Positions 12,994 through 30,988 of a stretch of 64,000 nucleotides of DNA are shown here, in pieces. Within the stretch, counting starts at the first letter, position 1. The number at the start of each line of letters is the position of its first letter. The notes under the pieces are model-generated. The model was not told the origin of the DNA. It did no database searches and was given only the letters and a program-made list of their open reading frames with translations. The DNA is from Hyphomicrobiales bacterium (GTDB lineage Bacteria > Pseudomonadota > Alphaproteobacteria > Rhizobiales > MH13), in NCBI GenBank assembly GCA_017642935.1, contig JAEPOK010000002.1:310001-374000 (forward strand). Direction: 5' to 3'. The translations under genes and the position numbers were made by a program.

Positions 12994-13745
12994 GACTTGG
13001 CCTTAATTCGCGCGCGGTGTTGCGCCAGTCTCGATCGGTGGTCATCTGTAAGCGGAATTTGCGAATGCCATCGCAGTTCATCACGTCCACGCTCGCTAAG
13101 GTTGGGAGAAAACTCCGGCGTTCCATCGTCTCCAAACGTTACAAGCCCTCGGTCAAATGCGGCATCCCAGAGGGCCGACAGCAACAAGCCGTTGTGGACG
13201 TCAAGTCGATCTGCATCGCTTTCGCATTCGCTCCAGGGAACGATGTGTGAAGCGCGAAGCAGTGCGGGGTCTGTTATTCCCGTCAAAGGACAACGGCCTT
13301 GCCAGTAGTCCATTAGGCTCTCTCTAAAGATGTTCTGTCCGATGCGCTGAACGACCAGGCGCTCCGCCTCTGTCGAGCGTGGAAGGTCCCTGACTTTTGT
13401 CTGAAAGGTGCGCAGCGGCCTATCCGGCAAACTCGCCGCCAGCCCGTAAACCTGCGGAAGAACCTCGTATAGCTCGCGAAGATCCTCAAATTGGAAACGA
13501 GCGAGGCCCGGACCGTCGACCGGCACTAGATTCAGGCGGATCTCCTCGATCACACCGCCATGGTCAAGCGCCAGGAACCAAGGACCTGACGCCCCTCTTG
13601 AGGCTAGCCAAATTGTTCCCTGCGCTGTCGTCGACTGAAATGCCGTCCATCCGTTGTCCTCTTCAAGCCGACGCCGAAAGCCGTGCCGCTCGGCCGCCTT
13701 CTGGCATTCGGTTGAGACGATGAAGGATTGTGGGCTTTCGATCAT
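12990..13745 (-). CDS. HNH endonuclease, last gene of the defence operon
   Basis: A 251-residue protein. The C-terminal half holds an HNH_2-type nuclease domain: ASHIVPWSECESDADRLD (residues 165-182), then VHNGLLLSALWDAAFD (183-198), with the His and Asn metal and catalytic positions in place. The N-terminal 140 residues are not recognised and may be a sensor or DNA-contact domain. The gene starts 12 bp after the ATPase gene and so belongs to the same transcript. Its stop overlaps the integrase stop tail to tail. HNH domains of this kind are common as effectors in restriction and phage-defence loci. Confidence 0.85.
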   Translation of the reverse strand: MIESPQSFIVSTECQKAAERHGFRRRLEEDNGWTAFQSTTAQGTIWLASRGASGPWFLALDHGGVIEEIRLNLVPVDGPGLARFQFEDLRELYEVLPQVYGLAASLPDRPLRTFQTKVRDLPRSTEAERLVVQRIGQNIFRESLMDYWQGRCPLTGITDPALLRASHIVPWSECESDADRLDVHNGLLLSALWDAAFDRGLVTFGDDGTPEFSPNLSERGRDELRWHSQIPLTDDHRSRLAQHRARIKAKS

Positions 13746-13757
13746 TTTCTCACAATG

Positions 13758-15734
13758 TCACAGGTCGCGCCGCAGAAGGCGGGCCGAACCGGGTGCGCCC
13801 CGCAGCACCACCCGACGCCAGGGATCACAATTGACTTCTTGCGGCGGTTTCGTCGTGGTCGTCACGACGTACTGAAAAACAGCACCCGCAAGCTCTTCCT
13901 CAAGCTGTTTCAGAAGCTGGAAATACTCATCGTAGATTGTTTGACCCAAGTCGGCTTCACGCGGACTGTCGTGGATCAGAAACGCAGGAATGCGCGTTCG
14001 CCCCTCAATACTCAAACACAGGCAGGAAAGATCGAAGGCGAGCACCTTCAATGACTCGATAGCCGCAGTCCGTCGGTCTCCTCCTGCCTCGACGCTGATT
14101 TCAAGACCCTTGCCAGTTAAACGGATTGTGCCTTTGACATCACCACCAAGAAGACGGCGAACAATTGCTGAGAACTTCTGCGAAATCGCACCAATGGTCT
14201 GCGCCTGCTTGTCCTCGAAGCCGCGCACCTGCTCCCGCACACGCTGCAGCTCACTATCAGCGGAGCTAATCGTCGTCTTCGCGGCAGCAAGCTCATCGAA
14301 AAGTTCTGCGCAACGTTGTGCGTCTTCGACACTGCGGGTCGCGGTTCGCCAAGTCGTATTGCGGGCGTCTGCCGCCTCTTCTAGCCTGCGCACGCGTTCT
14401 TCTGCTTGCTGAACATTTTGGACGGCGAGCGCTATCTCAGGTTTTGTGCTTTCGATCTCTGTTCGCACACCGGAGACAACTTGCGCTTGAGCCTCAACCT
14501 CTTGCCGCTTCGCATTCCACCGCGCTCGACATTGCGCAGCGTCAGGAAGCCGATGGGACAGCTTACAGCCTTCAGCCAAGGCTGCATCGAGCGGAACTTC
14601 GCAGATCGGACAGATTGGACTTGCGGCTGTTTGTGCGGCCGCAGACAGCCCTGGAATTTCGCTGTTCAGTTGACTGAGAATCTTTTCTTCCAGCGGCAGT
14701 TTTACCTCAAGACCTGCTACTTTGAGTTCTGCCTCGCGCAGCGTCGCTCTTGCCGCCTTAAGTGAGTTCCGTGCCTCCGATAGTTCGGAAGGATTGCCGG
14801 CAGGCAACTTGGCGGCGGCCGCGAGTCGCTGCCTCGCGGCTGACTTCAGGGAGTCGAGACGAAGAGGCATCTCCGGGAGTGACGTATCGCTCAGGCCAAG
14901 ATCGCTCACGAGCCGATCAACGCGGCGGGTCTGATCCCACTCAAGAAATGAGCGCTGCCGTTTCGCCTCTTCCAATTGTCCTGAGATCTCCTGCTCCCGG
15001 CGTCGAGCGGCTTGCTCGTCCTCGGTGATCGCCATCAGAAAGGCGCGCATCGCAAGAAGGCGCGGTCCCTTCGCATCCCCACTCGCCGGCTGCGGCGCGT
15101 CGGACCCCGATGCGGGCGAGCGCCAATCCAGCACGTCGTCGAAGCGGCATTCCTGATCGCGAGACGCCCAAGCGAGCGCGATAGGCCAAGCGTGTTGGCC
15201 TGAGGGCAACCTCGCTAACTGTGCCGTGCCTTCACCAAGTACTGCGGCGTCTATGGCTTCGATAAGCGGCTCAATGCCGGTTGCCGCATCTTCCATCGTC
15301 GCGACGGCATTAAGATCGCCGTCCTTGATTGCGAAGTGTTTGCGTTGGGCGCCTAGCGGCCGCACGACCGCCCAACAAGCCCCGTCTAGGATCACTTCGG
15401 CGCCGACGACTCCATTCAATAACGTCGTCGAGATCGCATCCCGCTGCACCTCGTCAGCAAAACGGACTTCGCCAAGACAATACCTCAGTAGGCGGCAGAA
15501 CAGCGTCTTACCGCTGCCGTGCCCAATAGCGCGCACGTCGCTGTTTGGATCATCGGCTCCGTCCGGAGACCAAACGATGTTAAGGCCCGGCCGAAGCTCA
15601 ATGTCGCGGATAACCTCACCACCCGGTGCCTCCCATATCTTCAGCCGACGCACCCAGAGTCGAGGCTCATTGAGGCCTTGCGGTACCTCTACGCTCAAAG
15701 GCGGAACCGGGAAGAGGTCATCCTGTTGCAACAT
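13758..15734 (-). CDS. Rad50/SMC-like ATPase with CxxC zinc hook
   Basis: A 658-residue ABC-type ATPase with Walker A GHGSGKTLF at residues 71-79. A helical, charged coiled-coil region (about 240-520) is interrupted by CPIC at residues 375-378, placed at its turn as in the Rad50 hook. The C-terminal lobe carries a Walker B-like FLIHDSPREAD (about 585-594). The first Walker B acid is present, but the usual Glu is replaced by Ser, and no clear LSGG signature is seen. It overlaps the methylase gene by 17 bp. The likely role is a DNA-sensing or DNA-bridging ATPase that works with the helicases; this is inferred. Confidence 0.82.
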   Translation of the reverse strand: MLQQDDLFPVPPLSVEVPQGLNEPRLWVRRLKIWEAPGGEVIRDIELRPGLNIVWSPDGADDPNSDVRAIGHGSGKTLFCRLLRYCLGEVRFADEVQRDAISTTLLNGVVGAEVILDGACWAVVRPLGAQRKHFAIKDGDLNAVATMEDAATGIEPLIEAIDAAVLGEGTAQLARLPSGQHAWPIALAWASRDQECRFDDVLDWRSPASGSDAPQPASGDAKGPRLLAMRAFLMAITEDEQAARRREQEISGQLEEAKRQRSFLEWDQTRRVDRLVSDLGLSDTSLPEMPLRLDSLKSAARQRLAAAAKLPAGNPSELSEARNSLKAARATLREAELKVAGLEVKLPLEEKILSQLNSEIPGLSAAAQTAASPICPICEVPLDAALAEGCKLSHRLPDAAQCRARWNAKRQEVEAQAQVVSGVRTEIESTKPEIALAVQNVQQAEERVRRLEEAADARNTTWRTATRSVEDAQRCAELFDELAAAKTTISSADSELQRVREQVRGFEDKQAQTIGAISQKFSAIVRRLLGGDVKGTIRLTGKGLEISVEAGGDRRTAAIESLKVLAFDLSCLCLSIEGRTRIPAFLIHDSPREADLGQTIYDEYFQLLKQLEEELAGAVFQYVVTTTTKPPQEVNCDPWRRVVLRGAPGSARLLRRDL

Positions 15735-18700
15735 TGCCGATCCAGTCCCGAATTTCGTCGGGTGCTGCCTCTATGGTCGTATCGATGTCGAGATTTCGTA
15801 ATACAGTGAGCGCGAATTTGGCCCGTCCCTCTGGCCAGCCGGCTGTGTCGAAAGCCTCAAGGCCTGTTCCGGGAGCCCAGGTTCCTTGAGCCAGATCTTC
15901 GATCAGCCGGCCATTCCCGCGATGGTTCGTGATCGCGGCATTCCATCCTGGCGTCGTGCGCGCTTCAAAGCCGACGACATTGCCAGTATGAGGTTCAGCC
16001 TCCTGGCCCACCAGCCGCCGCCAGTCTTGCTGATCCTGACCGGTAAGTAGCGACGTCAGTAAATGCGGCTCAAGCATCATCACGGCCGCGAGACGGATAG
16101 TCCGGATCTCTGTTGGCTCATCCAGCGATTTCAGAATAGCCGCAAGCGCAGCTGTCGGATCATGCTGCGATGACGGCGCTGCCCGAGCCCAGATCGCATC
16201 GGGCAGCTGTTCGAGCGACGGGAGTTGGATGGGTTGTTCGGCCCAAGGTTTTCGGGATTCATCCGCGCCATGACAAAGGCTGATATCGGCAGGGGGCGGC
16301 GATAGCGGCGTCTGGTAAGCTACCCCTTCGGCTTTGGCTTTTGCCATCGCGTCGTAGGCTTCAAGCACGAGCCGTTTTGTACGGAACTCGCCGTGATCGC
16401 GTTCCTCGTACTTTCGAAGAACGGTGAAGGAATCGAGGAGCCACTCTGCTTGTTCACGGTTTAAGGAGTACAGGTGCAAAACAGCGGCATCAATTTCAGC
16501 CTGCAAAACTGTACGGCGGTAAGCGTCCCACTTATAGGGAGGCGTTTTAGTGCTTATGCTGTCCGACAGGCCCTTGAGTTCCCAACTTGTATAAAAAAGT
16601 TCGAGCGCTCTGCGGTTTATCCAATCTCTAGTGGGCTCTCCCAACCAGGCCATTGTGAGATCAAGCGTCGCCTTGGACAGCATAGGAAGTTGTTCGACGT
16701 TGAAAAACGACATCCTGTTCGACTTCTGTCTCAAGGCGTAATCGACAACTAAAGTCGAAAGAAACGTAGAAAGAGCAAGTTCATCAGCTGGTGGCAAGCT
16801 GGAAACTAGAAAAGGTGACGTGTCACCTAACCCCACTTTTGGTGCAATCGTGCCTACGAAGCTCCGTTCAGTAGGACCAACATCTCGCCACGTGTAAAAC
16901 CACTCGCGATCTGAATCCTTTTCAAGTAATTCTTCGCACAAACGAGCATCGACCCAATAGCGAGGCTGCACGCAATACTCTGCTAACTCGTGAAGGCTGT
17001 CAGGCACTCTTGGCAAGACGCCTTTATTGGCCTGTTTTTGAGATTGGTTCTCGTAGGTGCCGTATCGATGATCGAAGTGCCAGTACATTTTGCCTTCGTA
17101 AAGGGGATATACCTTCCTTCCATCTGTAAGCACTGCCAGCGCGCCGCGACGCTCTTCAATTATTGGCGCAACGTCCTGATGGTCGATGAACTGCCCAGAA
17201 TCAGTCGCCATATTGAAAAGCGTTTTGAACGTGAGCTGCCAGTCATTACGTACTACCGTGTTTCCGTCCTTTTCGATCAGGATTGGCGCGGCAGTGTGGA
17301 TTGCCGCAGTAACCTTGGCGTCTCTGGCCCAACGAAACGCTGGCAAGTTCAAAGTGTTCGGGTTGATCGCTCGAATTTCATCGACGGTTAGCGAATAGCG
17401 CTTTTCGGGATCAGCGATTTCAGCGGGTTGCCGAATATGGGCAGTGAACCAGGGTTGCTCGACTTTTGCTGCAGACCCACCGAGTGTTAGTAACCCGAAT
17501 TTTGTTTCGTTGTGGACCGCTCTGAATATTTTCTCTTCATTTTCAAATCCATAGAAAGACACTAGAGATTTTTCAGATAGTATGTGCCCGAGAAATTCTC
17601 TGTAAGTGAAGCCAACGACCAATCCATTTGGAATGATTAGGCCGGCTCGTCCAAACGGGTGAATAGCTTGCCGAGCTAGATCGACAAACACTGCGTACGT
17701 GTTTACCTTCCCCGGGCTACCGAATGGAAACCTGCCGCTGCTCTTGTAGAAGTTTACTTCGGCTGCGGTGCTTCGAAGAGCGTCCTGCCACATTTCATAT
17801 GCTTCCGGCTCCTCCAGCTGCAGTCTATTGATTTTCTTCTTTCGTTCCGAAGCGTTCTTCGCGGTCGCAATTTCTGGGTGCGACAACGCGAAAAGCTCCT
17901 GCTCCTGGACCTCAACCCGTTCCCAAGGTGGATTGCCCAGCACCACGTCGAAGCCACCGCGTTGCATGATGTCGGGAAACTCCAGCGGCCAATGAAAGGC
18001 GCGGGCTTTGCGGGCGGCGTCGATACTGTTTGCGAAAAGCGGGCCGAAGAGTTGCACACCCCGCAGCCATTCCCAGACCGCACCAGAAGTCGGCACGGTC
18101 TCTGCACCCCGGCGCGGCAGGCCGTCCGGCCCGGCATGTGGGTCGTCTTTCGTCTTCGGCAGGAGGAAGGCTGAGACGTAGAGATCGCAGGCGGTCTCCA
18201 GCGTCCAGGCAGTCGCACCTTCCGCCGTCAGGGCATGCAGCTTCTCAGCTTTTGCCTCGATCTGCCGGACCGTGTTTTCCGGCATGGCGCGCAGGCGCGC
18301 AAACTCGCGCATAAAATCCTGCTGGCGGTTGAACCCGAAGCCGCTGTCGATCTTTTCGCGCTCTTTGACTTCGCGCTTGTTCTTGTCGCGATAGTATTTG
18401 GCGATCGTCTTGTCATCGCCCGTCAGCGGTTTGTAGGCGGCATCCGGAATGCCACCTTCCAGAACGGTGAGATCAAACACGCCTAGCAGTGCATCACCAC
18501 AGCGGATTTGCGCATCGAAGAACCCAAGCGGCAGGCCGGGATCGACGGTTTCGATCCAGAGCGCGACCTTGGTCAACTCCACCGCCATCGGGTTGCGGTC
18601 CACCCCATGAATGCAGGACCGCGCGACATCCCGCAGCGCATGGCGAAAATCCTCCTGCGCCGGTGTGCCGTCGGCGCGAATGCGGGCGACGCGCGATGCG

Positions 18701-20217
18701 ATCCGGCGAGCGGCCGCGAGGAGGAAGTGTCCTGACCCGCAGGCTGGGTCGATGACAGCGAGGTTCAGCAGCGCGGCTTCTGGATCTTCCGCCTCTGCCT
18801 CAGTCTTGTCGAGAACAGGGTCGAGCGCGGTGTCGAGCAGCGCCTGAACGAGGCTGTCGGGCGTGTAGTAGGAACCGGTGGTCTTGCGCTGATTGCCCTT
18901 CTGCTCGGCGGCGTCGGACGCAAAGACCAGCGACTTGCCATCATCACCCAGCTGGGGCTGGAGTTCGAGCAGGGATTCATAGACCGACCCCAATTCCTCC
19001 GTCTCCATGGCACGCCAGTTGACGGGCGACATGCCGGTTCTTCCCTGAAGCCAGGACAGGCGATAGAGCGCCTCCATGAAGGCGCGGTTGCGCAGCTTCG
19101 CCGTTTCAAGGCTTGGCAGCATGTTCGATCCAAAAAGCCCGCCTAGCGCAGGCAGCGCCAGCGCCTCCTGTCCGCCCGCCAGTGAGCCGAAAATGATCTT
19201 CACCCCCTCATAGCGGTCATGGTGGCGGTCCCATGTCGCCCCGCGAAAACACTGAGCGCGAAGATGGGCCAGGCTGTAGCCGTCCGCATAAAGCTTGCGG
19301 GCCTCAGTGCGAGAAACCTTCGGATGCAGAAGGTTTCGGTCTTCCGCCACCATCAGGAAGATCAGCCGGTAGACGAGACGCAGCAGCTCGTTGAACCACT
19401 CGGTGAGGTTTTGCTCGCCTGACTGAAGCTTGGCCGCGAGCGCCGGATTGGCCTCAAGGAAGCCCGAGCCAAGTATGTTGAGGGCGAGTTTGACCTGCAC
19501 CGCAAGCCGATCGCGCGCTACCTCTCCCTCTTTCGTGCCCGTTTCCCGCCAGCGCTCCAGCGCACAGTCGGTGGCGGGGGCACCCGCATTCCCAAAACGG
19601 CTGCGGCAGATGAGGAGCCAGAGCAGACCGAACGACGCAGCATCCTCGTTAGAGAACATCTGGGCAAGGTCCGCTTCTATGAATGCGGGGCGCGTCAGAG
19701 AGGCGTTGTCCCGCATCAGACGGATGACGACGCCATTGGTTGCAAGTCCCCAAAGGGCATCATCCTCTTCGTTGAGATAGTCCTGCAACGCAAAGGCGGG
19801 CGAGCGGGAGCGCTCGACCGAGAGTGTGGGGCTGCGTCGGTCAAGCCGGTCTTCATCCGGCGGCACGACGATGACAGGAATCCGATGACCGCCAGCGGAG
19901 AGCGCGATCAGCCCTGCGCCATCCTCAATGTCATCAAACCCAAACGTCTCCTTGAGGAAGGCCTTCACGAAACGGCACGTTGCGTCGGCAGAGGGATTGC
20001 TCAGCTTGCTGAAGGCATCAAAATGCGACTGGCCGACCCGGAAGGCGGTGGAAATTTCCTCTCGAAGCGTCAGACCCTTGCGGACGCCATAGTCTTCCGG
20101 GCTCTGTTCGGGCGCAGCGCGCTCATCAATCCGCGCCAGCATGGCAGGCGCGATCAGATTGCCTTCGAGGCTGATCGACGGCCAGGCGGAAAGGTCGGTG
20201 ACAGGACGACGGGCCAT
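15718..20217 (-). CDS. Eco57I-like N6-adenine DNA methyltransferase, large
   Basis: A 1,499-residue protein. Residues 1-400 form a long N-terminal region of mixed alpha/beta character without a clear PD-(D/E)XK motif. The methylase core follows: YYTPDSLV near 450, motif I IDPACGSGHF near 490 and motif IV NPPW near 760, which indicates N6-adenine methylation. The region after motif IV (about 780-1,255) should hold the target-recognition domain and is much richer in A+T than both flanks. It follows the SNF2 gene with a 2-bp gap. In such systems the methylase usually marks host DNA as self. Confidence 0.9.
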   Translation of the reverse strand: MARRPVTDLSAWPSISLEGNLIAPAMLARIDERAAPEQSPEDYGVRKGLTLREEISTAFRVGQSHFDAFSKLSNPSADATCRFVKAFLKETFGFDDIEDGAGLIALSAGGHRIPVIVVPPDEDRLDRRSPTLSVERSRSPAFALQDYLNEEDDALWGLATNGVVIRLMRDNASLTRPAFIEADLAQMFSNEDAASFGLLWLLICRSRFGNAGAPATDCALERWRETGTKEGEVARDRLAVQVKLALNILGSGFLEANPALAAKLQSGEQNLTEWFNELLRLVYRLIFLMVAEDRNLLHPKVSRTEARKLYADGYSLAHLRAQCFRGATWDRHHDRYEGVKIIFGSLAGGQEALALPALGGLFGSNMLPSLETAKLRNRAFMEALYRLSWLQGRTGMSPVNWRAMETEELGSVYESLLELQPQLGDDGKSLVFASDAAEQKGNQRKTTGSYYTPDSLVQALLDTALDPVLDKTEAEAEDPEAALLNLAVIDPACGSGHFLLAAARRIASRVARIRADGTPAQEDFRHALRDVARSCIHGVDRNPMAVELTKVALWIETVDPGLPLGFFDAQIRCGDALLGVFDLTVLEGGIPDAAYKPLTGDDKTIAKYYRDKNKREVKEREKIDSGFGFNRQQDFMREFARLRAMPENTVRQIEAKAEKLHALTAEGATAWTLETACDLYVSAFLLPKTKDDPHAGPDGLPRRGAETVPTSGAVWEWLRGVQLFGPLFANSIDAARKARAFHWPLEFPDIMQRGGFDVVLGNPPWERVEVQEQELFALSHPEIATAKNASERKKKINRLQLEEPEAYEMWQDALRSTAAEVNFYKSSGRFPFGSPGKVNTYAVFVDLARQAIHPFGRAGLIIPNGLVVGFTYREFLGHILSEKSLVSFYGFENEEKIFRAVHNETKFGLLTLGGSAAKVEQPWFTAHIRQPAEIADPEKRYSLTVDEIRAINPNTLNLPAFRWARDAKVTAAIHTAAPILIEKDGNTVVRNDWQLTFKTLFNMATDSGQFIDHQDVAPIIEERRGALAVLTDGRKVYPLYEGKMYWHFDHRYGTYENQSQKQANKGVLPRVPDSLHELAEYCVQPRYWVDARLCEELLEKDSDREWFYTWRDVGPTERSFVGTIAPKVGLGDTSPFLVSSLPPADELALSTFLSTLVVDYALRQKSNRMSFFNVEQLPMLSKATLDLTMAWLGEPTRDWINRRALELFYTSWELKGLSDSISTKTPPYKWDAYRRTVLQAEIDAAVLHLYSLNREQAEWLLDSFTVLRKYEERDHGEFRTKRLVLEAYDAMAKAKAEGVAYQTPLSPPPADISLCHGADESRKPWAEQPIQLPSLEQLPDAIWARAAPSSQHDPTAALAAILKSLDEPTEIRTIRLAAVMMLEPHLLTSLLTGQDQQDWRRLVGQEAEPHTGNVVGFEARTTPGWNAAITNHRGNGRLIEDLAQGTWAPGTGLEAFDTAGWPEGRAKFALTVLRNLDIDTTIEAAPDEIRDWIGNVATG

Positions 20218-20219
20218 GC

Positions 20220-22985
20220 TCAGGCCTCGTCCGGGATCAGAACGAAGAGCCCGATCACATCCGGCGGCAGCACCGCTTCAACGCTGACCCTGGAGGCGGA
20301 ACCCGCTGCGGCGCGCAGGCGTGCATGGTCTTCGACGAGTTCCTCTGCTCGTTGCCTGATAAAGTCCGCAAGTGGACCTTCAAGCATCGCAGGAAGCTCA
20401 GCTTTGGCTGCGTCAGAGAGGCGTCTACGCGCGATGTCTGCGAGGTCAGCAGTCGCCGGCGTGCCGAGCCTGTCGCGGACCTCGTTTCCGGACGCAATGA
20501 TGGTCTGGCCCTGTAGCGCGACAAGCGCAGCTTCCTCCGCAAGGAGAAGCCTTTCCTTCCGCGCATGAATAGTCAGCTTGTAACGGATCCGCAGCAAAGC
20601 AATGCGCGTCATGACGGACACCGCTGGCGTCGGCCAGGCGCCAACGCGGCCGATCCCAAGATCGGGCAACGATTCAGGTTCGAGAGAGGCTTCGAGGAGG
20701 CTTTCCGCCAGAGAGGACGTCAAGGGATGGGTCCGCGTCAGAAGACTGGTTCCCGAAGGCGCAGGTTCAGCGGTGGCAAGCCTCACCGAGTCCCTCAGTC
20801 CGCGCTGATCCAGTTTTTCTTTCAGGCTCGGCTGCAATGCGTGGACATGGGCGAGATGGACGGCGCCCTTCTTCTCGAGCGGTACACCGAATTTCCTCAG
20901 GGCCCGGTCAACAAATACCCTTGCGTCATCAGGCGAGCCGAGCAGGTCTTTCACCTTATTCCATTCCGGTGCGACTTCACCCGGCTTCATGGCGTTCTGG
21001 GCAAATCGCGCGCGTGATTTCTTTTCATTCTCGCTGGCATCGCGCCACCGCGCCTCAATGGCGCGCGTGCCGTCATCGAGCCTTAAATCGAGAGCGAGTT
21101 GTTGTTGCCCGCTGCGACGCAGCATCATCGACGCCATCAATGCGTCTGTGACCGCTCCCCGTTCTTCCGGTAGTGGAACGGTGACCCCGGTTGCTTTCCT
21201 GATCTCTTCTGCTTTTCGCAAGATGACGTCCAGAACCGCGCCGTCGATTGCGCTGTCGGGCGAAAACATCATGATTGACCGAACCAGTTCAGCAGGCTGA
21301 CCAAAACGGTCAACGCGGCCCTCTCGCTGCTGGTGGCGCGTCGGGTTCCACGAAAGATCGTAGTGAACCACGGTGTCGAAAAGTTGCTGGAGGTTGATGC
21401 CTTCAGACAGGCAATCGGTGGCCACGAGAATTCGCTGCGTTTGCTTTTGTGAGTCTTCGGACGCCATTTCGGCAACCCGGTCACGGCGCTCATCAGGTGT
21501 CAGTTCACCAGTCACCGCTTCAACTGTGAGTTTGCCAAACGCCTTGCGTAGCCGTTCCTTCACGTATTCCGCGGTTGCCAGGTATCGGCAAAACACGACC
21601 GGGTTTACCCCATCTTTGATTAGAGGTTTCAAGGCGCTAACGAGCGCATCAATTTTTGGGTCTGGCTCGGCTGTAAGCCCTTCTGCTCTATCAAGCAGCG
21701 CAAGCAGTTCAGGGTCTGACGTGAAGACCGTACCCGGCTCGAGGTCAACGGCATCTTCGTCATCGCCGTCTTCATCGTATATCTGGGGTTCGAGGCGCTC
21801 AGTCTCATTGCTGGCGCGGTTCCTCAGGGCACTGAGCGCAGCAGCCGGTGACGACCCAACGCAGCGCATAAGCGCGAGCGTTCCCCAGAACGCCAACCTT
21901 TGATCGCGTCGCTGACTCCCCGCGCGTGACACCACGCCAAGGCAGTAGTCGATGACCGCCTCCTGAAAGTCCAGGTGCGGTCCCGTCAGCCGATAGGAAA
22001 ACTCCGTGGTCTCATGTTTTGGAAAGGAACGCGTCTCATCCCAGTCACCTTCAATCAGGTCCACACGTCTGCGCTGAACAAAATGCCGCGCGAGGCGCTC
22101 CCGATAACGCACGTTGTCAAAGTCTGCGCCGGCGAACTCACCATCGATTAGTGATAGGAGCCTCGCGAAAGCCTCTTCATCGCCCGAATGCGGCGTTGCA
22201 GTCAGCATGATCAGGCGACGATTGACGTCTTTTGCAAGCCCCTGAAGGAGATCGAAGCGCTGCTGTTTGCCCTTGTGGGTGCCGACGCAGGCGTGAGCCT
22301 CATCCACAATAACGAAATCGGGGCAAGCCCTTGCAAATCCGTCCCGCCGTTTCTCTGCTTTAATGTAGTCAAGACTGACGACCGTGAAGGGAAATGCGTC
22401 AAACAGCGTCTGGGCCAGGGGCAAATTGCGTTCAAGACGGGCCGCTGTTCCCGAGGTCACCGGGACCGCATCAATCCCAAACCGGTCCTTGAGCTCAACG
22501 AGCCATTGATCCACGAGGTGCGGCGGGCAAAGTACAGAAAAGGAGTCCACCTCGCCCCGGTCCATGAACTCTCGCAGGATCAGTCCGGCTTCGATGGTTT
22601 TTCCAATCCCCACATCGTCAGCAATTAGAAGTCTCGGAACCTGAAGCCTCAGAGCCATTAGCAAGGGGACAAGTTGATAAGTACGAGGCTCGAAAGCCAG
22701 ATGAGCGGCCGACCTGAACGGGCCGGCGCCCCGACGCAGTGTAAGTCGAAGCGCGTCGCTGAGCAGGGCCGCCTTCGATTGAACGGTTGGCACCGCATCA
22801 GTCGGCAGGTCGAAACGAGCAGGTTCCACTGCCGTCAGTTCGAGTTCAGGGTTGAGCAGAACGATGTCGTTTTCGTTCCCAGAAAGCGGACGCAATGCCA
22901 GTACGTCACTATCAGGTGCAGGAAGTGCTACCCACTCCCGTCCTCTTGCCCGGACAAGATCTCCCGGTGACACGTTGAAACTCAT
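20220..22985 (-). CDS. SNF2-family helicase (DrmD/HepA-like)
   Basis: A 921-residue superfamily 2 ATPase. Walker A ADDVGIGKT lies near residues 122-130, DEAH at 218-221, motif III TATPHSGDEEA near 265, and the helicase C-terminal segment EGINLQQLFD with arginine-finger motif QQREGRVDRFGQ near 535-560. About 330 more C-terminal residues are mostly helical and acidic. SNF2 proteins translocate on double-stranded DNA. The start overlaps the upstream helicase stop by 4 bp. Similar proteins (DrmD) occur in class 1 DISARM. Confidence 0.9.
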   Translation of the reverse strand: MSFNVSPGDLVRARGREWVALPAPDSDVLALRPLSGNENDIVLLNPELELTAVEPARFDLPTDAVPTVQSKAALLSDALRLTLRRGAGPFRSAAHLAFEPRTYQLVPLLMALRLQVPRLLIADDVGIGKTIEAGLILREFMDRGEVDSFSVLCPPHLVDQWLVELKDRFGIDAVPVTSGTAARLERNLPLAQTLFDAFPFTVVSLDYIKAEKRRDGFARACPDFVIVDEAHACVGTHKGKQQRFDLLQGLAKDVNRRLIMLTATPHSGDEEAFARLLSLIDGEFAGADFDNVRYRERLARHFVQRRRVDLIEGDWDETRSFPKHETTEFSYRLTGPHLDFQEAVIDYCLGVVSRAGSQRRDQRLAFWGTLALMRCVGSSPAAALSALRNRASNETERLEPQIYDEDGDDEDAVDLEPGTVFTSDPELLALLDRAEGLTAEPDPKIDALVSALKPLIKDGVNPVVFCRYLATAEYVKERLRKAFGKLTVEAVTGELTPDERRDRVAEMASEDSQKQTQRILVATDCLSEGINLQQLFDTVVHYDLSWNPTRHQQREGRVDRFGQPAELVRSIMMFSPDSAIDGAVLDVILRKAEEIRKATGVTVPLPEERGAVTDALMASMMLRRSGQQQLALDLRLDDGTRAIEARWRDASENEKKSRARFAQNAMKPGEVAPEWNKVKDLLGSPDDARVFVDRALRKFGVPLEKKGAVHLAHVHALQPSLKEKLDQRGLRDSVRLATAEPAPSGTSLLTRTHPLTSSLAESLLEASLEPESLPDLGIGRVGAWPTPAVSVMTRIALLRIRYKLTIHARKERLLLAEEAALVALQGQTIIASGNEVRDRLGTPATADLADIARRRLSDAAKAELPAMLEGPLADFIRQRAEELVEDHARLRAAAGSASRVSVEAVLPPDVIGLFVLIPDEA

Positions 22986-25900
22986 GCGTCACCCCCCAAC
23001 AGTGTCACCAGCTTAGATGGCAGACCATCGTCAGGACTTGAGGGCAGTGAGACGATCTCCCAACCCTTTTCCAGGGCCTCGCCTGCCACCTCATTGGTCA
23101 CCGGTTGCAGAGTTGCCGCAACACGATGTGTTTTCCAGCCGAACTCGATCTTTGAGTCACCGAGTTCGAGATGCAACGTATCTGGTTCTGGCAGATTGGC
23201 TGCAGCAAAGGCATTGAGCCATAAATGAGCCTCCGCGTCCGGCTTTGTCCTTTGCAGAACAATTGTTTCGCCACGGGCGAGGTCAATCAGAAATTGCTTC
23301 ACTTCATCGCTCGCGCGATCAATCTGCTCGTGATCGGGCTGATTGAAATATGAGAGCAGGCACCGATAGCAGCCCCTAACGCAGGCCTCATGGTCTGCAT
23401 TAGTGAGCAACGTGGCATCACCTGCGCCAATCGCCTTGTCGATATTTTGAAAGTGCATCAGCTCAAGCGCCGTCTTGGCCACCAGCGCGATTGCCTTAGG
23501 GTCATCGATGAGACGCGTCAGAACGCCCGCGCCGCCTTCGGTCGCCTCATAAGCAAGCATCGCCCGGCGATTGTCCCGTGCAGGCAAGGGCTCGCCCAAT
23601 ACTTCGCCTTCTTCTAGCTGGTAGACGACCTCGATCCCCCTGAGCAGGGCATGCTGCAGGGTGGTGATCGTTTGAGGAGCATAGGCTTGCGGATCTGTAA
23701 TCCGGAACAAAAGCGCGTTCTTGTGGTCCCTGACGATCGGAACAATCCGCACAGGCCTCACAACGTCCGGCGCCGCGTCAGTCTCCGTGTCTTCGTCCTC
23801 GGACTTGGCCCAATATCCTGTTCTTGGGTCAATATAGAAGCCGAAGACGGTTTGATCCCGTCGGCGCTTGAGCCCTTTGTTCAAACGACTGATCTCGGCG
23901 CTGTTGGCATACTGCAGCGCCAACAGACTTTTCTCACCACACCGGAAATCAGCATCGGTGACCTGAATCTGTCCTTCCTTGCGAGGCCAAGAGAAGACCG
24001 TCTGAATGTCAAAACCCTGGCGCACCCGCTCTTCATCATTTGCCGAAATGCGCTCGGTCGGCATGGCCTCGACATTGTCGATCCGCAGTGTCTTCTTGAT
24101 CGGCACTTCCCCGGCCATATGCGCGTTGCAGCCATGGCAACGTTCCACCTCATTTTCATGGCAAGCGCCACAATCCTGGCAGATAAAGATATCCTTTGTT
24201 GCGAGCTCCGAACCGTCACCACCTCGTGCTTCCGGGGGCAGCTTCGCTTTCATGACGCGATAGGCGCGGCCCTCGTGATAAATCAGACTCCGTGGGCCAA
24301 ACTCGGAAATCGCCAGGAACCGAGCCCGCGACAAAAACGATCCGGTTTTGTCTTCACCCGGAATAAAAGCGTAAAGTGGCAGTCGCGGAAAATTATAGCC
24401 CGGCAAAAAGCCCTCAGTTGCTAGATACCGGTAAGAGTAGAAATCCGAACCATTCGATGCCTTGCCTTGCTCAAGGATGGCGATCTGATCACTCGCCTGA
24501 ATTTGCGCCGACTTGATCTTCCGTCGATCAGCTCCTGAGAGTCCTGCAATCTCTGATCGAGCATTGGCTTCTGACAGTTGACTGCGCGCTGACTTATAGA
24601 GGTCCCGCCATCGACCAAACGCCTGGTCAAACGACTTCGGCGCCTCCATGGCCACCCTGAGGACGAAGTCATCGGCATCATCCATCCATGTTGGGAGTGC
24701 TCCGCCATCAGCCGCCAGAATGGCATGCAATACGCGCTTCATGGGTACCATTGCGGACGAAACGAGCGATGGTTTGCTTATGGCGCTCAGGATGTCGCCT
24801 TTGAGCCGGAATTTCTCCGCTTGCAGATCGAGTATCTCCGGGATGTCCGGAGACAGGGCCAGCTTAGATTCTGCAAGCCAGACGGCATGAAGATGAGAGC
24901 GAACGAGTTCCTCATTTGTGATGTCGAGAGCTGGGGGCCTCACAACGCCGGCAACCATATCGTTGCGGCGATCAAAGAAATACTGATCGTGCGGCGATCC
25001 TGAAGCACAATACGCGACCACCACCGCAGCCTGACCAGAGCGCCCGGCACGTCCTGCGCGCTGCGCATAGTTGGCCGGCGTTGGCGGCACGTTTCGTAGG
25101 TAAACGGCGTTCAGTGCTGAGATATCAACACCGAGTTCCATTGTCGGGGAGCAAAAGAGCGCCGGAAGGAATTGGTCTGACTCACCTGTCGCCTTTATCT
25201 CGGTTCTGTATTCAGAACCCTGCAGATTGCTCTGGTCGTCGTTTTCGAACCGGAAGCGCCATTCGCGCCACTCGCGCTGTTTTTGAGCTACCTGTGCGGT
25301 GTGCTCCCGGCCTTCCAGCCCCCAATATGCGCTCCGCCCCAGGGCGAGATCGCTCGCAATGGAGAGATATAGGTTATGGAAATACTCATTTCCCCGCGCA
25401 GCCACGTCTCGTAGCGCATCCCCTGGCACGAGCCTGACAGCCGACGGCGTAAGCCGCCAGCCCATGACATTTGTGTCAATTTCGACGGGAACAACGAGAC
25501 CTTCATCGGAAAGAAGTTCGAGAAGGCGTCCGAGAAAATCCAGGTAGTCATTTTTGCCCAGTTTTGTTCCGATGACGCTATTCTTGTTGATCAGTCTGGC
25601 GATACGAGAATTATGGCCCGCGCGTAGGAGCGTTTGTTCTTCGCGCAGGCTGACCACGCCCTTGCCGGGTGCGCGCTGAACCAGCGCAGACCTCCCGCGA
25701 GGCTTTTCCTTACTGTCGATGGCCCAGGGCGAACGGAGCAGCGATCTGGATTTCTGCGCCACGCCGTCGAGCACCGCGAGATCCAGAGCCTCTGTGTTGA
25801 CTGCAAGACCGGCGAGCATTGCGCTGAGCAGTTCTTTGAGGAGTTTTTGCCGTTGGTCGGCGGAGACTTCTCCCAACTCCGGCAGCACAGCCATCATTCG

Positions 25901-28168
25901 TTCGCGGTCGTTGGCAATTTCCTCGAGACCAACAAATCGCACATCAATCAGATTGAGAACTGAGAGGCTGGGATTCGTGTAACGCCACCCGCGACGGAGA
26001 TCTGTCCAGACTCGATGGGCAAGCACTTTGGCGAGCGCGCGCTGTGCATCCTCACGAATAACCGCACCTGCAGATGGATCCAGCATCCAATGAACCCGCG
26101 CCCCTGCATTGGATGAGATGAAGCCAAGCGCCTTGACGACCCTGAGGCCGAATTCATCCTCGCTCAGGCCGTCATGGCCATCGTCAAGTATCGCCCGCAA
26201 TATGGCACCGCGTAAAAGGCTGACAAAAAGAAAGTCATTGAAATGACCGGACTGAAGCGCCGCGTCCTGCCGATTATCCGTAAATCCGAGAAGCTTTCGC
26301 TTCGTATCCGGAACCCCACTCTCGGCCGAATTCATCCATTCTAGGGCGCTCGACACCAACAGAGTCGTCGCCGAGCTACGGCCTTCACCCGATAAGCCAG
26401 CAAGTTTGCTGCGTTCCCGCATGCCCTGATTCGGTTCATCCTGACAGCAAAGGCAAAACGCGAATTTGCCCGGCACAAAGAAGAACTCCCGGCCGCCTGA
26501 ACTGTGACGTCCATCGGTTTCAACAAAAAAGGAAATAGGAGCACGCGCTCTGCGATAGGACCGCAACCGCTCCACGCCATTGCGTTCCTCAAGCCAGCTT
26601 TCGGGAAACGTGCTCAGGTCTCCGTCGAATACAAAATCGGCGTCGCCTTCTGGCACGGGGCAGAGATAACCAGCGACCTCAGAACCGTCTTCTGACTCAA
26701 GCGGAGTATCGTCGATGCCTCGCGGCAGAAATCTCGTATGGCCGTCATCGTCAGTCTTCGTAACGACATGATATTCGTGACCGCAGTTTCTGCAGAAGCG
26801 TGTTGGATACAGTCGGTTGCCGGGCGCGTTTGGATCCTCCAGCTGCCCTTCAAATAGGATGGTTCTCGGATGTTTTGTAAGCGTCGCGAAGACCTCACCA
26901 GCGCCGGAGATAAAGCGGTGAAGTTTGAACGCGAGAAATGCCCGTTCTCCGCTTCCTCCTCTCTCACACTCCGGGAGGCTGACCTTGGTCAGGAAATCCT
27001 GGAGAACACCTTTACATACCTCAGAGCTTGAGCCGCTGTCTGCGACGAGGCGATCAACCGCACTTTGGAAAGGTACCGGCTTTTGTCGTTTGAGCTCGAG
27101 CCCATCATCAAGACCAAGAGCAAGCTCGGTCCAGACCGCCAATGGATGCGTTCTGAGTGTCTGATCATCCAAAACATCGGGAACGCCGTCAGCAAGAGCC
27201 GATGGCAAAGCAGAAACAGCTTCTGCCAAACTGATATTATCACTCGTAGCACGCTGAAGGGACTCATCAATAACGGCATCGGGACCGATATCCGCGCCGA
27301 ACAAACGGGAGGCGACTTTTGCCACAGCAACAGCTCGGCTTTCATCTGATCCCTCGGATGCCATCGTGGCCGAAGTACCGATGCAGACAGGCGCCCTGTC
27401 GGGTGCGCATCTGTCTCGAAGTCGCCTGACAAGAACGGCAACGTCTGCACCTTGTCGTCCCCGGTAGGTATGCAGCTCATCCAGAATAATGAATTCCAAG
27501 CCGCTCGCATTCTCGACCACTTGTGCGTCAAGCTTATCCTGACGCGTCAGAAGGAGCTCAGCCATCATATAGTTTGTTAGAAGTATATCCGGTGGATTGT
27601 CCGCAATCTTCTGGCGCTCTTCCTGACTTTCCTGCCCGGTATATCGCTTGATCACTGGGCGCATTTTGTCCGGAAGGCCCGACTGGCTGATGAATTTGTC
27701 GATCTCCTTCAACTGGCTATTTGCCAGCGCGTTCATCGGATAAACGATGATCGCCCTTGTTCTTCTTGGTTTTCCTGCGCGCAAGGCCCGGATAATCGCG
27801 TCCACCACCGGCACAAAAAAGCACATGGACTTTCCCGATCCTGTGCCGGTCGTCACGACATAACTCTTGCCCGCTTTCGCCTTTGCGATTGCTTCGGCTT
27901 GATGCCGATAGAACGTCATGGGAGCATCGCCGAAACGAAACACTTTGCCCGTGGCCTCATCCAGATCGCCCGACTCTACAAGTTCATCGATATTCTTGTC
28001 CGACCGATAACGGGGATTGAGTGACAACAGTGCCTCGGGCCAGAAACGCCCTTCGTTATACTGGCGATCAATTTCAGACCTCAGATCTTCCGATCGAATT
28101 GAGGTGAAGGAGCGTGAGAACTGCTCATAGGTTGTTATAAGGTGCTGATCGAATTCAAAGGCTTTCAT
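22982..28168 (-). CDS. Large DEAD/DEAH helicase with DUF1998/MZB C-terminus
   Basis: A 1,728-residue protein. Walker A TGTGSGKS lies at about 105-112, motif II DELHTYRGRQGAD near 226, SAT in GTSATMAS near 270, and motifs IV-VI including QRAGRAGR near 1,040. A Cys-rich ribbon (CQDCGACH...CHGC) lies near 1,330. The end is a DUF1998-type domain with EATEGGAGVLTRL near 1,550 and CVRGCYRC near 1,595. The middle (about 400-900) is unusually long. The layout resembles MrfA-type helicases and a DrmA-DrmB fusion. It is the first gene of the leftward defence operon and is expected to be a DNA-processing or invader-recognition motor. Confidence 0.88.
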   Translation of the reverse strand: MKAFEFDQHLITTYEQFSRSFTSIRSEDLRSEIDRQYNEGRFWPEALLSLNPRYRSDKNIDELVESGDLDEATGKVFRFGDAPMTFYRHQAEAIAKAKAGKSYVVTTGTGSGKSMCFFVPVVDAIIRALRAGKPRRTRAIIVYPMNALANSQLKEIDKFISQSGLPDKMRPVIKRYTGQESQEERQKIADNPPDILLTNYMMAELLLTRQDKLDAQVVENASGLEFIILDELHTYRGRQGADVAVLVRRLRDRCAPDRAPVCIGTSATMASEGSDESRAVAVAKVASRLFGADIGPDAVIDESLQRATSDNISLAEAVSALPSALADGVPDVLDDQTLRTHPLAVWTELALGLDDGLELKRQKPVPFQSAVDRLVADSGSSSEVCKGVLQDFLTKVSLPECERGGSGERAFLAFKLHRFISGAGEVFATLTKHPRTILFEGQLEDPNAPGNRLYPTRFCRNCGHEYHVVTKTDDDGHTRFLPRGIDDTPLESEDGSEVAGYLCPVPEGDADFVFDGDLSTFPESWLEERNGVERLRSYRRARAPISFFVETDGRHSSGGREFFFVPGKFAFCLCCQDEPNQGMRERSKLAGLSGEGRSSATTLLVSSALEWMNSAESGVPDTKRKLLGFTDNRQDAALQSGHFNDFLFVSLLRGAILRAILDDGHDGLSEDEFGLRVVKALGFISSNAGARVHWMLDPSAGAVIREDAQRALAKVLAHRVWTDLRRGWRYTNPSLSVLNLIDVRFVGLEEIANDRERMMAVLPELGEVSADQRQKLLKELLSAMLAGLAVNTEALDLAVLDGVAQKSRSLLRSPWAIDSKEKPRGRSALVQRAPGKGVVSLREEQTLLRAGHNSRIARLINKNSVIGTKLGKNDYLDFLGRLLELLSDEGLVVPVEIDTNVMGWRLTPSAVRLVPGDALRDVAARGNEYFHNLYLSIASDLALGRSAYWGLEGREHTAQVAQKQREWREWRFRFENDDQSNLQGSEYRTEIKATGESDQFLPALFCSPTMELGVDISALNAVYLRNVPPTPANYAQRAGRAGRSGQAAVVVAYCASGSPHDQYFFDRRNDMVAGVVRPPALDITNEELVRSHLHAVWLAESKLALSPDIPEILDLQAEKFRLKGDILSAISKPSLVSSAMVPMKRVLHAILAADGGALPTWMDDADDFVLRVAMEAPKSFDQAFGRWRDLYKSARSQLSEANARSEIAGLSGADRRKIKSAQIQASDQIAILEQGKASNGSDFYSYRYLATEGFLPGYNFPRLPLYAFIPGEDKTGSFLSRARFLAISEFGPRSLIYHEGRAYRVMKAKLPPEARGGDGSELATKDIFICQDCGACHENEVERCHGCNAHMAGEVPIKKTLRIDNVEAMPTERISANDEERVRQGFDIQTVFSWPRKEGQIQVTDADFRCGEKSLLALQYANSAEISRLNKGLKRRRDQTVFGFYIDPRTGYWAKSEDEDTETDAAPDVVRPVRIVPIVRDHKNALLFRITDPQAYAPQTITTLQHALLRGIEVVYQLEEGEVLGEPLPARDNRRAMLAYEATEGGAGVLTRLIDDPKAIALVAKTALELMHFQNIDKAIGAGDATLLTNADHEACVRGCYRCLLSYFNQPDHEQIDRASDEVKQFLIDLARGETIVLQRTKPDAEAHLWLNAFAAANLPEPDTLHLELGDSKIEFGWKTHRVAATLQPVTNEVAGEALEKGWEIVSLPSSPDDGLPSKLVTLLGGDA

Positions 28169-28279: not shown

Positions 28280-29506
28280 TCATTTTGACGACCATAAGCA
28301 CGAGAGTGGAACCGCACGCATATTTTCTGCGAATGGAACGACTTGATCATGGTCATAGAGGACGATCCCCTGAACGAACCGATCTCCACATGCCTCTGCG
28401 AGTCTGCGAATTCCTGAAAAATCGCCTGCTGACACTGTAGCCGATGACTTCACTTCGACACCGACAACTTCTCCGCGCCTGTTTTCGATAACAACGTCGA
28501 CTTCATTCTTATCCTTGTCTCTAAAGTGGGAGAATGAACATCTCTGTTCGCTCCAGGTGGCTATCTTCTGCAATTCGCTGAAGACAAATGTTTCCAAGAT
28601 TGCGCCGAATGACGTTTTGTCCTTGTGGACAACATCTGGAGAAATATCGCGCAGTGCAGCAAGTAAGCCAGCATCCAAGAAATGAAGCTTCGGTGATTTA
28701 GTCAGGCGTTTCAGCTTATTGGTAAACCACGGTTGCAGGGTTTGAATGATAAACAGGCTCTCGAAGACGCGGACATATTTCTGGGTCGTCACATGATTGA
28801 GATTTATTGCGCTACCAATGCCGGAATAGTTCACGAGTTGTCCGGAATGCTCGGCCAAAATGCCGAGTAGCTTTGGCATGATCGCGAGTTGTTCGATCTG
28901 TGCGATATCACGAACGTCGCGTTGAACGATTGCGTCCACATAACCATGATACCAGTCCTGCCTACGAGCCCATTTTTGGCGATCAAGTGCCTCGGGATAA
29001 CCGCCCGCTAGAACCATCTCGATGAGATCGTCACCAATTATTGTGGTCTCGACCGTTGGCGCAGCGCCATTGAATGCGTTGTCCAGAAACGTCGACTTCG
29101 CACCCTGAATCTCTGAACGAGAAAGTGGAAGGAGCTTCACCACCTCCATTCTGCCGGCAAGAGAATCGGCTACCTTGGGAACTGTCATAAGGTTGGCAGA
29201 GCCAGTGAGAAGGAACCGGCCTGGGCTCTTGTCTTTGTCTACCTCTGTCTTGATAGACAACAGTAGCTCCGGGGCACGTTGGATCTCGTCTATGACCGCC
29301 CGTTCAAGGCCGCGCAGAAATCCCACAGGATCCTCGGTTGCGGCCGTCATGACAGTCGCATCGTCTAGGGTGAAGAATGGGATATCTTCAGCAGCTATGT
29401 CGGTGGCCAACGTCGTTTTACCGGACTGTCTGGGCCCTGAGATCAGTACAACGCGTGTATCAGTCAGCGCCTCCTGAATTCTATCCTTCACAAAACGATC
29501 GTACAT
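28280..29506 (-). CDS. AAA ATPase with C-terminal DUF4143
   Basis: A 408-residue protein. Walker A SGPRQSGKTTLA lies near residues 24-35, Walker B AVIDEIQ near 91 and sensor LLTGSANL near 117. The C-terminal DUF4143 domain holds the nuclease-like pair NEVDVVI and VGVEVKSS (about 335-355), matching a PD-(D/E)XK pattern. Proteins of this family are frequent passengers of genomic islands and their role is unsettled. It lies 111 bp upstream of the defence operon on the same strand, with lower GC than the conjugation genes. It could be a regulator or extra component of that operon, or independent cargo. Confidence 0.85.
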   Translation of the reverse strand: MYDRFVKDRIQEALTDTRVVLISGPRQSGKTTLATDIAAEDIPFFTLDDATVMTAATEDPVGFLRGLERAVIDEIQRAPELLLSIKTEVDKDKSPGRFLLTGSANLMTVPKVADSLAGRMEVVKLLPLSRSEIQGAKSTFLDNAFNGAAPTVETTIIGDDLIEMVLAGGYPEALDRQKWARRQDWYHGYVDAIVQRDVRDIAQIEQLAIMPKLLGILAEHSGQLVNYSGIGSAINLNHVTTQKYVRVFESLFIIQTLQPWFTNKLKRLTKSPKLHFLDAGLLAALRDISPDVVHKDKTSFGAILETFVFSELQKIATWSEQRCSFSHFRDKDKNEVDVVIENRRGEVVGVEVKSSATVSAGDFSGIRRLAEACGDRFVQGIVLYDHDQVVPFAENMRAVPLSCLWSSK

Positions 29507-29524
29507 TCACGGCCCTTTACTTTC

Positions 29525-29604
29525 GACCAGATGAAAGTACGCACGCGACCATCTGAAAGTCAACGACTGACTGATTGAAAGTGGTAAGCCGACCATCTGA
29601 AAGT
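29525..29604. repeat. Four iteron-like repeats with 22-bp period
   Basis: GACcatcTGAAAGT-type 14-mers start at 29,525, 29,547, 29,569 and 29,591, exactly 22 bp apart; the 8 bp between copies vary. GAC and TGAAAGT are constant and copies 2 and 4 are identical. The block sits between the DUF4143 gene and the leader of the maintenance operon. Helically phased repeats are typical of binding sites for a replication, partition or regulatory protein. Confidence 0.7.
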
Positions 29605-29794: not shown

Positions 29795-30988
29795 ATGACA
29801 GCGATTGAGATCATGAACGGCCGCCCCGAGAGCGGCGGCTACAAGGTGGATGTGTCCCGCGGTGGGCACAACGGGCGGGTGTCGTCCGGATGGTTTTCCC
29901 GGCCCGACGACGAGAAGTATCTTTCGCTTTCGGACCTCTACGCCTCAGTGAAAGGCCGCGCCGAACAGAGCAAGACCCGAACGGTCGAGAGCGCCGCGAT
30001 CCGCGTCGAAGCCCATCGCGACGATCCGGAAAAGCTGGCGCTCGTCCTTCCGGACGCCGAAGCCCCAGTCGCGCCGACCCATTGGAGCTTCGGCCAACTC
30101 GCGAGCCTAGTCGGCGCCCCGGCCGCCTATCTGCGCCAGCTTCCCGCGCCGCTCGCGGGCATCAACCTCCAATACGGCCTCACCAACCATCGCGCCGAGC
30201 AGGTGAAGACGATGGAGGTCGCAAACGGCCGCACCGAACTGCGCGCCGTCACCGGCCCGGACTATGGCCGCATCTACGACCACGAGCTCGTGTCGGCCGT
30301 CCAGCGGATCGCGGGCGACGGCGTCGGCGACACACGCTGGAAGGTGCCGGGCATGCTCGACTGGTCGACGGGTGTCTACAACCCGATGGTCGACGTCACC
30401 AAGGAAACGACCACGCTCTACGCCTCGGACCGCGACGTCTTCCTCTTCTTGGTCGACGATATGAATCCGATCGAGGCGGGCACGCTGCCCGACGGATCGC
30501 CTGATCTCTTCTTCCGGGGATTCTATTGCTGGAACTCGGAGGTCGGCGCGAAAACGCTCGGCATCGCGAGCTTCTATCTCCGCGCGATCTGCCAGAACCG
30601 CAATCTCTGGGGCGTCGAGGACTTCCAGGAGATCAGCATCCGGCATTCGAAGTACGCCGCCAACCGCTTCGCGCACGAGGCGGCTCCGGCGCTGGCAAAC
30701 TTCGCGGATTCCTCGCCGCAGCCCTTCATCCAAGGTATCCGCTCCGCGCGCGAGCGGATCGTCGCGCGCAGCGACGAGGACCGCACCGACTTCCTGCACA
30801 AGCGCGGCTTCTCGAAGGCGGAGACCGGCAAGATCGTCGAGACGGTGCTGGCGGAAGAAGGCCGCCCACCCGAGAGCGTCTTCGACTTCGTCCAGGGCAT
30901 CACAGCGGTTGCCCGTTCCAAGCCGCAGCAGGATGTGCGGCTCACCATGGAGACCCGCGCAAAGAAGCTTCTGGAGGCCGCCGCCTAA
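29795..30988 (+). CDS. DUF932 protein of conjugative elements
   Basis: A 397-residue soluble protein with DUF932 features: FGQLASLVGAPAAYLRQLP near residue 105, a repeated acidic core, and LFFRGFYCWNSEVGAKTLGI near 240. Members occur almost only on plasmids, integrative elements and phages. The biochemical role is not established. It opens the rightward maintenance operon. It is followed by a terminator-like hairpin and a second copy of the SD-adjacent stem-loop before the ParB-like gene. Confidence 0.85.
   Translation: MTAIEIMNGRPESGGYKVDVSRGGHNGRVSSGWFSRPDDEKYLSLSDLYASVKGRAEQSKTRTVESAAIRVEAHRDDPEKLALVLPDAEAPVAPTHWSFGQLASLVGAPAAYLRQLPAPLAGINLQYGLTNHRAEQVKTMEVANGRTELRAVTGPDYGRIYDHELVSAVQRIAGDGVGDTRWKVPGMLDWSTGVYNPMVDVTKETTTLYASDRDVFLFLVDDMNPIEAGTLPDGSPDLFFRGFYCWNSEVGAKTLGIASFYLRAICQNRNLWGVEDFQEISIRHSKYAANRFAHEAAPALANFADSSPQPFIQGIRSARERIVARSDEDRTDFLHKRGFSKAETGKIVETVLAEEGRPPESVFDFVQGITAVARSKPQQDVRLTMETRAKKLLEAAA

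Follow-up and report, generated by a model that had tools for sequence, protein, structure and literature searches.

A 64,000-nucleotide stretch of the genome of a Hyphomicrobiales bacterium (GenBank assembly GCA_017642935.1, contig JAEPOK010000002.1, positions 310,001 to 374,000; referred to here as the window) carries four short direct repeats just upstream of a gene encoding an AAA_14-DUF4143 protein, a predicted anti-phage gene that PADLOC lists as PDC-S01. From comparison of sequences, we consider it probable (about 0.7) that these four boxes form a cis-specific, helically phased autoregulatory operator that is bound by the DUF4143 protein itself. This reading builds on the position of the array, its phasing, its conservation, its dedication to DUF4143 genes and the way in which its unit tracks the protein, all of which were observed here. 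A search of open-licence papers brought up no description of such an array upstream of PDC-S01/DUF4143 genes.

The initial annotation of the window had described four 14-base-pair (bp) repeats with a spacing of 22 bp, of which two are identical, and this description holds. The 14-mers start at 29525, 29547, 29569 and 29591, at a spacing of exactly 22 bp. The repeats at 29547-29560 and 29591-29604 both read GACCATCTGAAAGT, from which the repeat at 29525 deviates by two mismatches and that at 29569 (GACTGATTGAAAGT) by four. As a whole, the array spans 29524-29604, between the DUF4143 gene (28280..29506, minus strand, 408 amino acids) and a divergent DUF932-type gene on the plus strand. A triple-repeat score, computed over periods of 15-40 bp against dinucleotide shuffles, reached 34 for the 260 bp that precede the start of DUF4143, which exceeds all 1000 shuffles (mean 22.3, standard deviation 1.5, maximum 31) and ranks second among the triples of the 64-kb window. 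Furthermore, the 3.74-Mb genome contains the exact 14-mer GACCATCTGAAAGT at two places, both of them in this array. The array is beyond chance, and the finding is more general than was initially supposed.

When 31 non-redundant homologous regions were aligned on their last box, four conserved 13-bp boxes emerged, separated by spacers that are mostly variable. The exceptions are a TTGAC that precedes box 3 and a GTA that precedes box 4, and these two lie at the spacing of a -35 and a -10 element. In the window, all on the minus strand, the distal box 1 (29590..29602, TTTCAGATGGTCG) and box 2 (29568..29580, TTTCAATCAGTCA) are followed by the candidate -35 hexamer TTGACT (29558..29563), which shares one base with box 3 (29546..29558, again TTTCAGATGGTCG), and, 18 bp from the -35, by the candidate -10 hexamer TACTTT (29534..29539), which overlaps the proximal box 4 (29524..29536, TTTCATCTGGTCG). 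Box 4 ends 17 nucleotides (nt) from the DUF4143 ATG. Since the -10 hexamer matches TATAAT weakly, and since a generic sigma-70 consensus scan called no promoter in the array region and picked up neither hexamer, we infer the promoter from its conservation. In most of the main DUF4143 subfamily, the last box lies 16-20 nt from the start codon, and this near-fixed distance, together with the conserved TTGAC and GTA, suggests that the array covers the likely site of RNA polymerase and hence overlaps the predicted promoter of the DUF4143 gene.

DUF4143 homologues were taken from genomes of many lineages; one of them, in Actibacterium sp. 188UL27-1, is 97% identical to the window protein. Among the closer homologues, nearly all carry between three and seven boxes, of the form TTTCAATTGGTCG or similar to it, directly upstream of their own start codon. 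The region upstream of the gene beat its own shuffles in 73 of 90 cases, 72 of them at a period of 22 bp (59) or 23 bp (13), although many of these regions are non-independent, being drawn from close relatives. One of the initial suggestions, that the repeats serve the divergent DUF4143 gene as an operator, is correct in substance. The array is also dedicated to these genes: of the strong triples counted across 710 kb of homologue loci, 55 are within 300 bp upstream of DUF4143 and three are elsewhere, and a survey of 397 genomes from the order gave only six matches to the pair pattern TTTCANNNRGTC-N10-TTTCANNNRGTC, found in three genomes and all adjoining DUF4143. The neighbourhood, by contrast, is variable, with no flanking frame common to more than 11 of 48 loci. 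Array-bearing DUF4143 genes are found on chromosomes as well as on plasmids, where the annotated surroundings are as different as metabolic genes and a Qat defence cluster.

More distant members of the family retain the period but carry other units, among them CCGGATTGGACG, and, at 23 bp, TTTGCAAATAGTCG, TTATAAAAACGCGG and CTAATAGCCGTTTTCCGG, the last in seven copies. A Clostridiales and a Spirochaetales genome (G778 and G780; loci L162-L210) have 25 and 32 matches to PF13635, respectively, and many of these copies have a distinct array of their own, built from unrelated units. We scored 95 distant regions, drawn from both many-copy genomes, other Clostridia, one Verrucomicrobiota genome, a Bacteroidota plasmid and an archaeal phylum. 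A significant array was found in 25 of them, with periods of 22 bp (1), 23 bp (14), 32 bp (4), 33 bp (4) and 16 bp (2). The 23 regions at 22, 23, 32 or 33 bp compare with none among controls from inside genes; most of the significant regions come from the two many-copy genomes, and the sample of the Clostridial class yielded few. These periods are near two or three helical turns, as would be expected for proteins that bind along a single face of the double helix.

The unit sequence goes with the protein and not with the genome. Units differ among the paralogues of one genome, and two units that were tested have no other occurrence in their own genomes. Conversely, two homologues from different genomes (L106 and L085, 93% identity) share the same unit. 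Motif similarity tracks protein identity with a Mantel rho of 0.74 among 36 representatives, a value reached in 0 of 2000 permutations (0.87 on all 79), whereas the reverse-strand motif similarity correlates at only 0.21. Because paralogue units differ and orthologue units agree, the DUF4143 protein fits better as the binder than a host factor. It is conceivable that the array is indeed a DUF4143 operator and yet is bound by another protein of the host or of the element, since separately encoded repressors can control defence genes. The nearest functional parallel that we found is RptR, a repressor of an E. coli defence island that binds three direct repeats in a promoter (PMC12255303). RptR, however, is a small protein separate from the effector and recognises a 6-bp palindrome, TAGCTA, whereas here the putative regulator would be the effector itself and the unit is paralogue-specific. 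Given also that no neighbouring gene is constant and that neither of the two tested units recurs in its genome, we think a separate binder rather improbable.

If the DUF4143 gene product does bind its own four-box array, its subunits would sit on boxes two helical turns apart, and hence on one face of the DNA, where they might cooperate. The bound subunits would cover the region from -35 to +1 and in this way could repress the DUF4143 gene, until a trigger, for instance invading DNA, releases the repression. Regulated expression of DUF4143 genes is in keeping with an observation in Thermus, where a DUF4143 gene was induced 6.6-fold when a plasmid was present (PMC4406477, the one paper naming DUF4143 that a full-text search of open-licence literature brought up).

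The protein itself is a full-length match to the PADLOC model PDLC04790 (PDC-S01, E 1.2e-175), and its matches to PF13635 and PF13173 exceed the Pfam cut-off. The AlphaFold2 model (predicted local distance difference test score, pLDDT, 92) comprises an AAA+ ATPase, a winged helix at about residues 205-277 and a PD-(D/E)XK-like nuclease fold at about 297-384. Among 44 DUF4143 sequences, G24, G29, K30, T32, D73, E74, E351 and K353, which include the Walker motifs, are invariant, and D337 is nearly so (conserved in at least 90%); the ATPase motifs and the PD-(D/E)XK-type residues of the window protein are evidently intact. A search of solved structures by sequence returned no convincing match. 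By structure, residues 1-287 of the model are best matched by two archaeal STAND ATPases, PAB2304 (2qen; VIA-align Z 15.5) and SSO1545 (2fna; Z 13.4), in the AAA core and the winged helix, followed by the NLR/CED-4 STAND proteins. The DUF4143 protein differs from PAB2304 and SSO1545 by its C-terminal PD-(D/E)XK-like domain.

According to PMC12988326, PDC-S01 ranks fourth by frequency among prokaryotic defence systems and consists of an ATPase fused to a domain of the PD-(D/E)XK superfamily, an architecture that the window protein shares; the paper states that validation is pending for most such candidates. The passages found on this family describe no operator array and no experimental demonstration of a defence function. 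The DUF4143 gene is a candidate anti-phage gene, among the commonest and uncharacterised. A fixed helical period combined with a paralogue-specific sequence offers an immediate handle on this common family, since every PDC-S01 protein comes with a matching array on which to assay it, such that regulation, specificity and trigger become measurable.

Several points weigh against self-binding or against its generality. We counted the predicted winged helix in favour of DNA binding by the DUF4143 protein, but in STAND proteins the winged helix usually serves nucleotide-dependent switching and not DNA binding. The covariation between residues and motif did not single out the winged helix, the enrichment in its recognition helix being weak (p 0.04, uncorrected). 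Vertical co-descent of a promoter with its gene inflates the Mantel correlation. The archaeal sample had no convincing array, only one AT-rich 16-bp triple. Lastly, some family members lack a direct array. Of 38 such members, 14 instead show an inverted repeat close to the start that scores as significant, as compared with 2 of 20 members with an array, and the rest of the 38 have neither. This difference suggests that a palindromic operator may replace the array. In loci L087, L072, L073, L113, L116, L137 and L138, which have no direct array, a long inverted repeat or palindromic repeats often lie over the likely promoter.

Box pairs were also found in viruses. A degenerate pair of the window type at 22 bp is present in 27 viral contigs; 26 of the records, most of them fragments, have no DUF4143 match. 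The same search gave no pairs at 25 bp, three with a reversed box at 22 bp and 11 at 21 bp, mostly in long open reading frames, so the loose pattern has some background. With the strict unit TTTAAATYRGTC, ten viral pairs have a spacing of 16-46 bp, which in eight of them is exactly 22 bp. With the unit TTTCAATYRGTC, five of eleven are at 22 bp and two more are three-box arrays. Several of these contigs are related to each other. Noncoding pairs occur in about a dozen viral lineages. The pair fills the gap between two tRNA genes in L294 (2687-2724), L298 and L299, and it lies just after a tRNA in L277 and just after a hairpin in L274 and L273/L276. Together with L280, L284, L285, L291, L301 and L304, these records have two or three boxes at 22 bp, mostly in noncoding DNA, and no DUF4143 gene. 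Pairs in coding regions (L286-L290, L292, L293, L296 and L297) were set aside, as they may reflect constraint at the protein level or chance.

Two isolated phages, Roseovarius sp. 217 phage 1 and Roseovarius Plymouth podovirus 1 (L307 and L308; FR682616 and NC_049345), carry a two-box pair at about 1501-1534, directly after a terminator-like hairpin, with one mismatch in the second box. The related Ruegeria phage V13 (L324) has a hairpin at the corresponding place and no boxes, and the host Roseovarius sp. 217 (L022) has a DUF4143 gene with an array. Searches of GenBank phages with other pair or triplet sequences gave no further convincing cases. It is attractive to think that the phage copies are perhaps decoy operators. 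A bolder version, which we put forward tentatively and think on balance unlikely, is that each PDC-S01 gene has a private phased DNA address read by its own protein, and that some phages weaken the defence with decoys or self-mimics, namely two- or three-box copies placed at neutral sites, either in the gap separating tRNA genes or following a terminator. If true, this would be counter-defence by operator mimicry, and the Roseovarius phages offer a natural test of whether phages use such sites.

The lone phage pairs, the helical phasing and the combination of an AAA ATPase with a nuclease would also suit a further role, in which the array is an assembly or self-marking site of the nuclease beyond a promoter switch. 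Such a role would be compatible with autoregulation by the DUF4143 protein, yet autoregulation alone accounts for the promoter geometry, and we give the additional function little weight.

The autoregulatory reading retains only one part of the initial interpretation, which besides the DUF4143 operator had offered an operator for the DUF932 gene and a site of replication origin or partition to which the ParB-like or toprim-associated protein would bind. For the DUF932-type gene (29795..30988, plus strand), it can be said that the two genes share one intergenic region in the window and in L009. None of 12 DUF932 homologues without a nearby DUF4143 gene carries the array, however, although several retain the characteristic DUF932 leader, and the array lies about 190 bp from the DUF932 start. 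The absence of the repeats upstream of DUF932 genes in relatives is an outcome that the initial annotation had named as refuting. We therefore rejected an operator for this gene, or for both genes, as very unlikely, and judge DUF932 to be outside the system. Iteron origins and parS-like centromeres likewise have direct repeats about two helical turns apart, the 22-bp spacing is within the iteron range and the window resembles a mobile element, but no shared Rep or Par gene accompanies the arrays, which lie over the promoter of a gene for an ATPase-nuclease, with a nearly constant interval to its start codon, and follow DUF4143 amid unrelated annotated neighbours, including in the Spirochaetales and Clostridiales genomes with their many separate arrays, so that an origin or centromere of an excised element was rejected as very improbable.

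As to the remainder of the genome, a second, partial DUF932 match lies on another contig (G000:C1:1957653-1957856, L158), in which 67 residues align at 70% identity. Downstream of the DUF4143 gene, the window encodes at 12990-28168 on the minus strand a DruE-like helicase, a DpdE/DrmD-like SNF2 helicase, a DrmMI-like methyltransferase, an LmuB-like ATPase and an HNH protein, a cluster that is possibly a composite defence system.
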